Positions 9,845-31,658 of a stretch of DNA of 31,658 nt are shown piece after piece. The notes under the pieces were generated by a model. It ran no database searches. It was not told the origin of the DNA and was given only the letters and a program-made list of their open reading frames with translations. Position numbers and translations under genes: made by a program. Every line of letters starts with the position of its first letter. The stretch's first letter is position 1. Source of the DNA: a virus; IMG/VR virus record IMGVR_UViG_3300022074_000218, positions 1 to 31,658 of that record, one strand, 5' to 3'.

Positions 9845-9863
9845 TAAAGGTCTTTCATGCACG

Positions 9864-9941
9864 CCACTTGCTCTTTAACCTGAAACAAGAAACAGGGCGG
9901 GAGTTACCTCCATCCGCACCACTTGCTCTTAGGAAAAGCAA
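9864..9941 (-). repeat. Two imperfect copies of a CCACTTGCTCTT...CAAGAAAC unit
   Basis: CCACTTGCTCTT occurs at 9864-9875 and again at 9919-9930, and each copy is followed after 8-10 nt by CAAGAAAC. In the second copy CTTGCT pairs with AGCAAG over a 9-nt loop. The pair lies in the untranslated stretch after the gene at 9951-10160 and before its terminator; it may be a structured 3' end or a small RNA. I see no gene here. Confidence 0.45.
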
Positions 9942-9950
9942 GAAACCAAT

Positions 9951-10724: not shown

Positions 10725-10746
10725 TGTTTTGTTTGTTGACCTTAGT

Positions 10747-10775
10747 ATTATAAGGGATTGACGGCGAACCGTCAA
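10747..10775 (-). promoter_or_regulatory. Sigma70-type promoter with a dyad over the -35 box
   Basis: TTGACG (10770-10775), 17 nt, then a perfect TATAAT (10747-10752). The -35 box is one arm of a perfect dyad TTGACGG-CGAA-CCGTCAA on the plus strand (10758-10775), just 2 nt past the 3' end of tRNA-Ile. The dyad could be an operator or a processing/termination hairpin of the tRNA transcript. Confidence 0.78.
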
Positions 10776-10776
10776 G

Positions 10777-11751: not shown

Positions 11752-11759
11752 TTGTAAGT

Positions 11760-11788
11760 ATTATACACTTACCTGTGCTTCCTGTCAA
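11760..11788 (-). promoter_or_regulatory. Perfect sigma70 promoter of tRNA-Pro
   Basis: TTGACA (11783-11788), exactly 17 nt, TATAAT (11760-11765). The -10 box is flanked by a perfect dyad, GTAAGT (11754-11759) and ACTTAC (11767-11772). It should drive tRNA-Pro, the Phd-like gene, talC and tRNA-Ile. The -35 box lies inside the coding end of the small membrane protein gene upstream. Confidence 0.88.
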
Positions 11789-16858: not shown

Positions 16859-16877
16859 ATAAGAAGACCCGAAGGTC

Positions 16878-17534
16878 TTATGAGAGAATTGGAATGTTTT
16901 CTGTGATAGATTCAGAACCTCCAAGGATAAAACTCTCAGGATTAAATCCCCAATTGTATTGTAATGCTTGTTTATCTAGATCGGTAAAACCAAAGTATCT
17001 AAACATACGCATACCATTAGGAAAGAAACGAAATACATTATAAGACATAATAGTGTCTTCTACGGTAAAGTCTGGGTGAGCACCCTCACCACGAGGATGT
17101 CCAAGTCCTAAAGCATGACCAATCTCATGACGAAGAACATACTTCTCAAGAAAATCAACATGCGAATCATCATCTCTAACAAAAATTTTGATTCTATTGG
17201 GACGAGCAGAAGCACGTCCTACTACAGCTTCTTGAAGAGCAAAATCTCTATCTTTTAGTCCATGATCATTCTTCTTACTATTTTCATAGTTAGTAGAATC
17301 TGTAATTTCCTCAGTATAGATAAACCTAATATCATCATTTTTCTTTTTGGTTTTTACAAAAGAAATACCAGTAAGATCATCAATCTCTTGAAGAGTAGAT
17401 TTAATTTCCTTACGCTCAAGGAAAGAAAGTCCTTTCTTTTTCCAAGAGTAATTAATTATCTTGTCACCACCAGAAAGGTAATTGATATAATTAAACCAAG
17501 GTGTTGAAATAATATCGGTTACACTTTTTTTCAT
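16878..17534 (-). CDS. M10/serralysin-like zinc metalloprotease
   Basis: This 218-aa protein has the full metzincin zinc site LRHEIGHALGLGHPRGEG (HExGHxxGxxH, about residue 136 on). A Met-turn IMSYN follows about 20 residues later, and the C-terminal FTDLDKQALQYNWG corresponds to the serralysin/matrixin helix (LDIxAIQxLYG). Upstream, FNYINYLSGGDKIINYSW matches the start of M10B catalytic domains. It lacks a signal peptide, a prodomain with a Cys switch and RTX repeats, so it is a bare catalytic domain, likely intracellular or packaged. It lies between tRNA-Gly and tRNA-Asn in a tRNA operon. No ribosome site is obvious before the ATG at 17534. Role unknown: prohead maturation or host protein cleavage are guesses. 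Confidence 0.8.
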   Translation of the reverse strand: MKKSVTDIISTPWFNYINYLSGGDKIINYSWKKKGLSFLERKEIKSTLQEIDDLTGISFVKTKKKNDDIRFIYTEEITDSTNYENSKKNDHGLKDRDFALQEAVVGRASARPNRIKIFVRDDDSHVDFLEKYVLRHEIGHALGLGHPRGEGAHPDFTVEDTIMSYNVFRFFPNGMRMFRYFGFTDLDKQALQYNWGFNPESFILGGSESITENIPILS

Positions 17535-17720: not shown

Positions 17721-17737
17721 TGGTAACTAAGTTACCA
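17721..17737 (-). other. Hairpin between tRNA-Thr and tRNA-Arg
   Basis: TGGTAAC-TTA-GTTACCA is a perfect 7-bp stem with a 3-nt loop in the 21-nt spacer of two tRNAs. No T run follows, so it is more likely an RNA processing signal than a terminator. Confidence 0.45.
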
Positions 17738-17738
17738 A

Positions 17739-17812
17739 CGACTCAGGTAGGACTCGAACCTACGACCGACTGCTTAGAAGGCAGTTGCTCTATCCATCTG
17801 AGCTACTGAGTC
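17739..17812 (-). tRNA. tRNA-Arg (anticodon TCT)
   Basis: Cloverleaf with acceptor GACTCAG/CTGAGTC, anticodon stem ACTGC/GCAGT with loop CTTCTAA, T loop TTCGAGT, discriminator G73. It reads AGA. It is the first gene of the tRNA operon, about 11 nt after the expected transcription start. Confidence 0.95.
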
Positions 17813-17829
17813 ATTTGCTTGCCTTGTGC

Positions 17830-17858
17830 ATTATAGGACACAAGGCATAGATTGTCAA
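17830..17858 (-). promoter_or_regulatory. Perfect sigma70 promoter of the tRNA operon
   Basis: TTGACA (17853-17858), exactly 17 nt, TATAAT (17830-17835). The -10 lies in the loop of a perfect 8-bp dyad, GCCTTGTG (17821-17828) and CACAAGGC (17839-17846). The -35 contains the TGA stop of the gene upstream. It should drive tRNA-Arg, -Thr, -Gly, the metalloprotease and tRNA-Asn/-Val. Confidence 0.9.
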
Positions 17859-18064
17859 GCGCGTTCTTGGTATCTCTGAAATTCTTCTGGGGTAATTTCA
17901 TCGATTGATACAACCTCTAGTTCATCTCCTTGAGGTTCAAACCACTCTGCAAACTCTTCATAAAGTGCCCTACAATCTCCTATGGGCATCTTTTCCATAT
18001 CAAATCGATCTATTGCCCAGTCTCTGATTCCCTTTACAAGTTCTTCAGTCGTCAATTCTTCCAT
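17855..18064 (-). CDS. Small acidic hypothetical protein
   Basis: This 69-aa protein begins MEELTTEELVKGIRDWAIDR and is rich in Glu and Asp; the end is ITPEEFQRYQERA. AAAGGA lies 6 nt before the ATG at 18064, which decides the start; a longer reading would run through the nuclease gene. Its TGA is part of the -35 box of the tRNA promoter. No family recognised; the size and acidity fit small early proteins that bind host targets, but this is speculative. Confidence 0.65.
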   Translation of the reverse strand: MEELTTEELVKGIRDWAIDRFDMEKMPIGDCRALYEEFAEWFEPQGDELEVVSIDEITPEEFQRYQERA

Positions 18065-18491
18065 AGTAATCCTTTCGGTAGTACCTGCTGAGGATGTTGC
18101 TATTGTAGTACCTGGGGACTCCGGTGTCAAGCTCTTCAGTAAGGACGTTGTAGTAGAAGAGTTGTCTTGTTTCTTCAAAATTAGTTTTGCCCTTCGTTTT
18201 ATGAAGGCTGAGGATAGTTCTACTAAAATTCTGCTTGCCGTATTTGATAATGTCTTCCTTAAGTTCCGGACAAGACCCATAATACTTTCTCCAATCAGAT
18301 TCTTGTTTTACTTTGCGCTTTTTTCCTTTTGGAGTTCTGAAGGACCAAAAATACTTTCGCCCAATGTATTGTCGTTTGTTTGAGAGATTGGTAATGTTAT
18401 AAACAAAACCGTGGTTATCCCCAATAAGACTCCCGTCAAAAGGGACGCCATTATAGATCCATGGGTTTTCATAATCAGTACCTGTACTCAT
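18045..18491 (-). CDS. GIY-YIG-type nuclease
   Basis: This 148-aa protein has HGFVYNITNLSNKRQYIGRK, where GFVY and YIG stand for the GIY and YIG halves of the GIY-YIG motif. A conserved Arg/Lys (KYFWSFR) and the SDWRKYYGSCPELKEDI stretch follow, with NFSRTIL and a distal Glu (NFEETRQLFYY) that could be the catalytic metal ligand. It is close to the small GIY-YIG proteins of T4-like phages. GIY-YIG homing nucleases interrupt or flank nrd genes in T4, and this one lies just after nrdB. It could be a free-standing homing endonuclease or a host-DNA nuclease. It overlaps both neighbours by 17-20 nt. Confidence 0.7.
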   Translation of the reverse strand: MSTGTDYENPWIYNGVPFDGSLIGDNHGFVYNITNLSNKRQYIGRKYFWSFRTPKGKKRKVKQESDWRKYYGSCPELKEDIIKYGKQNFSRTILSLHKTKGKTNFEETRQLFYYNVLTEELDTGVPRYYNSNILSRYYRKDYYGRIDD

Positions 18492-31348: not shown

Positions 31349-31658
31349 AACTTAAATCCCTCAAATGATTTCTTTGGTTTTGGTTCCTCATAATTATACT
31401 CCTCTTCCTTCCCACTGTCAATGATGTCTTCCTGTGCTGACTGCTCACAATCATACAGACGCATCTTGGCACGGTCAATACCAACCACAAACCTTTTGTA
31501 TATAGTTGGATCATTATATCGGTTCTTCAACTGCTTCACCATAATTTGTCCGAGTCCCTCAAGGTCATCTGTAGAAATAAGGGCAAACATAAGATCAGCA
31601 GTAGCAGGCAAACCAAAGGACTCACTAGTATCAGTGAGCTCAACATCGCTGCTACCAT
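31345..31658 (-). CDS. Replicative DNA helicase gp41, C-terminal part
   Basis: The visible 104 codons are the end of a T4 gp41-type hexameric helicase; the rest lies beyond the right edge. GSSDVELTDTSESFGLPATA matches T4 gp41 SSDVNMSDIAESAGLPATAD, the RecA-fold region near motif H4, and LMFALISTDDLEGLGQIMVK then QLKNRYND continue the match. The C-terminal tail KSFEGFKF is aromatic-ended like T4. The helicase unwinds DNA 5' to 3' and works with the gp61 primase encoded at 22143-23120. Downstream, a TTG-start gene overlaps the stop. Confidence 0.9.
   Translation of the reverse strand, partial: GSSDVELTDTSESFGLPATADLMFALISTDDLEGLGQIMVKQLKNRYNDPTIYKRFVVGIDRAKMRLYDCEQSAQEDIIDSGKEEEYNYEEPKPKKSFEGFKF

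Follow-up and report, generated by a model that had tools for sequence, protein, structure and literature searches.

A consensus sigma70 promoter overlaps a predicted RNA hairpin upstream of phage tRNA genes

Results

The window, by which we mean the whole 31,658-nucleotide stretch analysed here (a 31.7-kb IMG/VR virus record), has a gene content of the T4-like cyanophage type and encodes a transaldolase, both ribonucleotide reductase subunits, a primase-type protein and nine tRNA genes, all nine on the minus strand. A wcaG RNA element, common in cyanophages, lies at 9853-9950 on the same strand (Rfam RF01761, 92 bits). The tRNA-Arg(TCT) gene (17738..17813, minus strand, with its 5′ end at 17813 or 17812) leads a cluster continued by tRNA-Thr and tRNA-Gly. 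Directly upstream of the site described below is a 69-aa ORF of unassigned function (17855..18064, minus strand; PHROG 23981), whose start codon was picked by eye, with an AAAGGA 6 nt ahead of the ATG; a relative of this ORF was sought in the phage collection and none was found. A near-consensus promoter, TTGACA-17-TACAAT, stands upstream of the ORF at 18102-18130 (minus strand).

Upstream of tRNA-Arg(TCT), the minus strand carries an exact TTGACA-17-TATAAT (17858..17830), whereas only 0.018 exact promoters with a spacer of 17 are expected per window (chance about 0.02). The TGA of its -35 box (17853..17858) is the stop codon of the 69-aa ORF, and its -10 box (17830..17835) lies within the loop of an inverted repeat. 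The original prediction of an exact sigma70 consensus is thus confirmed on the minus strand in both hexamers and in the spacer. The 8-bp dyad that it placed around the -10 box, GCCTTGTG (17846-17839)/CACAAGGC (17828-17821), is real but one base pair short: the full repeat (17820-17847) is a perfect 9 bp, with TGCCTTGTG (17839..17847) as the 5′ arm and CACAAGGCA (17820..17828) as the 3′ arm of a predicted hairpin whose 10-nt loop contains the -10 box and whose 3′ arm ends 6-7 nt from the tRNA, all on the minus strand. Folded as RNA, the site region reaches -15.5 kcal/mol (z -4.2), and 0.12% of shuffles with both hexamers held fixed produce a stem of 9 bp or more centred on the -10 box (P about 0.001). 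The repeat, sought by exact search, had no match in IMG/VR, and the window, examined for further copies of the arm sequence that could make up a regulon operator, contains it once only.

Two further exact copies of the promoter are present in the window, again on the minus strand. One precedes tRNA-Pro (11754..11788) and has a different repeat at its -10 box (GTAAGT..ACTTAC), ending 2 nt short of the tRNA; the other (31393-31421) apparently lies within coding sequence, with no tRNA downstream. Hairpins also occur before tRNAs that have no promoter: GGTAAC-TTA-GTTACC (17721..17735, minus strand) lies between tRNA-Arg and tRNA-Thr, a few nucleotides before the latter, and AAGACC-UUCG-GGUCUU (16864..16879, minus strand) lies 4 nt before tRNA-Asn. 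Directly 3′ of tRNA-Ile, a near-consensus TTGACG-17-TATAAT (10740-10776, minus strand) has its -35 box in one arm of a UUCG hairpin, TTGACGG-TTCG-CCGTCAA, and its -10 box in a CCTTA/TAAGG repeat.

For a survey of such sites, one promoter-plus-T-loop pattern served to draw phage promoter-tRNA units from IMG/VR and also to draw bacterial units; removal of near-duplicates at 75% identity left 341 phage and 124 bacterial tRNA promoters, and expected counts came from shuffles preserving both hexamers. Perfect stems that are 7 bp or longer and have the -10 box at their centre occur at 28 of the 341 phage promoters against 3.0 expected, and at two of the 124 bacterial ones against 1.1, which is no excess. 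Since the tests were sequential on growing sets, with several thresholds tried and shuffles that keep base composition only, we do not rely on modest ratios here or below. In the first phage tRNA promoter set the profile of stem positions has its maximum at the -10 box, a peak that was not seen in the phage promoters of protein genes compared with it. The geometry recurs: stems are 7-9 bp long, with about 4 nt between the left arm and the -10 box and 0-1 nt between the box and the right arm. Arm sequences are hardly ever alike, and nearly 90% of the phage tRNAs have no perfect stem this long. The promoter itself is common before phage tRNAs and invariant in three orthologous loci, in agreement with its predicted place at the head of a tRNA operon. 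The tRNA-Arg sites of isolated cyanophages are mostly not orthologous to the window site; analogous dyads are found in RN05-S and S-RSM4, a hairpin spans the whole promoter in S-BM3, and in Sf-CH3 the hairpin lies downstream of the -10 box. At the tRNA-Gly promoters L024, L564 and L593, among others, a strong stem of 6-8 bp is built from the -35 box and spacer (GACA..TGTC); this predicted pairing is another way to overlap a hairpin with a promoter.

The three direct relatives of the locus, L764, L765 and L766, were found via the 69-aa ORF. Their promoters are identical and their arms have changed, the exact arm sequence of the window being present in 0/3: L765 has ACCCUC/GAGGGU, L766 has ACCCUUU/AAAGGGU, and L764 has AUCUUGU/ACAGGGU, with two G-U pairs that break the DNA symmetry and an intact promoter. 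One pair appears as C-G, G-C and U-A, two pairs pass from C-G to U-G, and 95% of cells are paired; across these three sequences the covariation does not exceed what shuffling gives (76/500). The hairpin of L764 is weak, its fold being no better than shuffled (z -0.1). Of the conservation in related phages that the original prediction proposed as a check, the promoter and pairing at the same place are kept and the exact arm sequence is not. Mere chance would fit both the loss of the exact arms in these orthologs and the nearly 90% of comparable promoters without so long a perfect stem, but we consider a chance repeat at the tRNA-Arg promoter extremely improbable given the P of about 0.001 for the site, the enrichment of its class (28 against 3.0) and the pairing retained at the same place. 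In L765 and L766 the tRNA lies 73 nt from the -10 box, where the stem is kept with a compensatory change, and a second hairpin adjoins the tRNA. A long hairpin directly before tRNA-Arg is common to L765 (1745-1802), L766 (1745-1802) and L478 (S-H68), with stems GGTAGTTC..GAACTACC (L765, S-H68) or GCTAGTTC..GAACTAGC (L766) and a similar 17-nt loop; from its sequence, it is possibly an uncatalogued RNA element.

The position of the stem follows the tRNA. Where the -10 box lies 13-19 nt from the tRNA, 22 stems of 7 bp or longer are found at the box, with 0.9 expected; at 0-12 nt there are 5 against 0.9, and at 20-79 nt there are 0 against 1.0. Promoters more than 19 nt away have tRNA-adjacent stems (7 observed, 2.6 expected) and, at the -10 box, 1 against 1.1. 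Because the stem is absent from the -10 box at 20-79 nt and sits near the tRNA instead, the repeat does not appear to serve the -10 box. Phage tRNAs without any -10-like sequence have 35 stems ending 2-11 nt upstream against 6.7 expected, and the gap from stem to tRNA peaks at 4-8 nt both with a promoter and without a -10 box. The stem thus sits at a set distance from the 5′ end of the tRNA, L765 and L766 being the exception, and we conclude from these sequence comparisons that the repeat is tied to the tRNA, not to the promoter.

Perfect hairpins are nevertheless about three times as frequent where the tRNA has a consensus promoter (12.6%) as where it has no -10 box (4.2%), a difference for which tRNA processing alone is an insufficient explanation. 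This higher rate and the -10 stem of L765 and L766 lead us to keep a role at the upstream mRNA 3′ end as a rival, in which the site would be a composite cassette (similar to the PeSL elements discussed below) whose hairpin terminates the upstream mRNA or protects its 3′ end and whose promoter restarts transcription for the tRNAs. Such a cassette would also account for the upstream ORF's stop codon inside the -35 box, at the window site and in many relatives, and for a hairpin-to-stop-codon distance that is constant in L765 and L766 though the tRNA has moved away. We nonetheless think it unlikely: the stem is not followed by a T-tract (no more than three T within 8 nt in 48 of 51), hairpins are present between adjacent tRNAs too, and the hairpin rate shows no dependence on an upstream CDS, being 13.5% where the upstream neighbour is a CDS, 10.5% where it is a tRNA and 12.1% where it is neither. 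On sequence grounds, we reject an intrinsic terminator for want of this T-tract.

A helix in the sense RNA tolerates G-U pairs, which read as A-C mismatches on the opposite strand, whereas symmetry at the DNA level has no such bias. Among hairpins of promoterless tRNAs, single interior mismatches are G-U in 22 cases (3.5 expected) and A-C in 4 (3.3 expected). At the -10 dyads the strict threshold gives 6 G-U against 1.6 and 2 A-C against 1.2, which are few cases, and at a looser threshold the G-U excess is gone (8 against 3.6, with A-C at 7 against 2.8). A first wobble count at promoters, using shuffles without a fixed -10 box, had put A-C above G-U; once the hexamers were fixed and the set enlarged, G-U exceeded A-C under the strict threshold alone. 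Among relatives of dyad promoters, 11 changes are double Watson-Crick, 12 are G-U and 3 are A-C, some of these being non-independent, and GNRA loops stand at 8 observed against 0.65 expected, their complement at 2 against 0.30. Pairing of the sense RNA is thus conserved through compensatory and G-U changes, moderately so for the -10 subset. At IMG/VR phage promoters without a nearby tRNA, -10-centred stems are in about twofold excess with mismatches of the same kind (G-U 15 against 4.4, A-C 4 against 2.9), which suggests that other phage promoters overlap predicted RNA hairpins too.

These data bear on the DNA operator originally proposed in place of an RNA hairpin, at which a dimeric phage or host regulator bound to the repeat would block the -10 box. 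A repeat of about 9 + 10 + 9 over the -10 box is, as generally known, typical repressor geometry, and such repeats are commoner at promoter-bearing than at promoterless tRNAs and mildly enriched at non-tRNA promoters. However, arm sequence and loop length vary between phages and even between two promoters of the window phage, so that the repeat is not one protein's operator. No second copy turned up in the window or in the exact IMG/VR search; arm changes compensate or turn into G-U, as in L764; the repeat leaves the -10 box when the tRNA is 20-79 nt away; and phage tRNAs without a promoter have the same kind of hairpin. A conserved half-site across related promoters, expected of an operator for a dimeric regulator, was not found. 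We consequently regard this claim as unsupported and judge an operator quite unlikely. We deem it very unlikely that a cruciform or strand hairpin in the DNA tunes promoter opening: the loop surrounds the -10 box, and symmetry is kept where sequence is not, but stems of 6-9 bp are short for cruciforms, and the effect varies with distance to the tRNA, is present without promoters and favours sense G-U pairs. The repeat may still have a DNA role at some promoters.

Discussion

Our comparisons suggest that the repeat is maintained as an RNA hairpin a few bases before the tRNA and not as a repressor-binding site, an RNA-level reading that we consider fairly well supported by the sequences. We propose, with a probability of roughly 55%, that two elements are superposed at this site, a sigma70 promoter and a hairpin that would aid RNase P in read-through RNA. 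The strong host-type (sigma70) early promoter would initiate the tRNA-Arg-Thr-Gly RNA near 17823 and leave a leader of only about 10 nt, too short for the hairpin to form; the original remark that the left arm lies upstream of the transcription start stands for this promoter-made RNA, and it does not extend to RNA reading through from the upstream gene, which would have both arms. Only in such RNA would the hairpin form, its 3′ arm stopping 6-7 nt short of the mature tRNA, so as to sequester the upstream mRNA or distal leader and leave a short single-stranded leader free for the RNase P protein. Read-through precursors would thereby resemble promoter-made ones and be cleaved cleanly. The transcript of the 69-aa ORF is the likely source of the read-through RNA, and the promoter at 18102-18130 is a possible one for read-through into the tRNA cluster. 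That the -10 box lies in the loop may reflect the approximately 40 nt between stop codon and tRNA, which have to accommodate both elements. We infer the existence of the read-through RNA, the formation of the hairpin and its role in processing. The gap of 4-8 nt between stem and tRNA matches the leader span from N-8 to N-3, the positions -8 to -3 that the bacterial RNase P protein contacts (PMC11143913). Stable stems 2 nt from the cleavage site slow RNase P about tenfold, and where the proximal leader pairs with the distal leader or with the RCCA the loss can reach orders of magnitude (PMC10731613).

Promoter-early stem-loop (PeSL) cassettes of T4-type phages are reportedly the subject of Arbiol et al. 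2010 (doi 10.1093/gbe/evq006) and Comeau et al. 2014 (doi 10.1093/gbe/evu129), both cited in PMC4503421. They resemble the window site, where a strong sigma70-type early promoter and a stem-loop likewise share a short phage intergenic space. In contrast to these cassettes, the window site has its -10 box in the loop and is tied to tRNA genes; its sequence, lacking a T-tract, does not make an effective terminator, and the copies in the window do not share arm sequence as several similar recombining copies would. Stem-loops flanking pre-tRNAs control bacterial RNase P, for example in E. coli valVW (PMC10731613), where a leader hairpin near the RNase P site affects processing of a polycistronic precursor; there, however, the inhibitory stem is 2 nt away, whereas the phage stems mostly leave 4-8 nt and overlap a promoter. 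Repressor operators over a sigma70 -10 box share with the phage sites an inverted repeat that covers the -10 box, but the phage repeats have no conserved arms or second copy, tolerate sense wobble and depend in position on the tRNA. Our literature search for hairpins before phage tRNAs found no paper describing them.

More tentatively, we suggest that phages widely merge a tRNA promoter and a processing hairpin in an overlapping 40-nt element, in which initiation would give a short leader without hairpin, read-through would give a hairpin-capped precursor, and either route would present a leader ready for RNase P. Phage tRNA genes are many and lie dispersed between protein genes in long co-directional operons; their excision from mixed transcripts has received little study. 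As the present case illustrates, a palindrome that covers a -10 box is not necessarily an operator. A hairpin that recurs at a constant spacing from the RNase P site and is fused to a promoter lends itself to direct tests and could help to locate phage tRNA transcription units. If true, the overlap of promoter and hairpin would represent a compact and little-noticed design for phage tRNA production.
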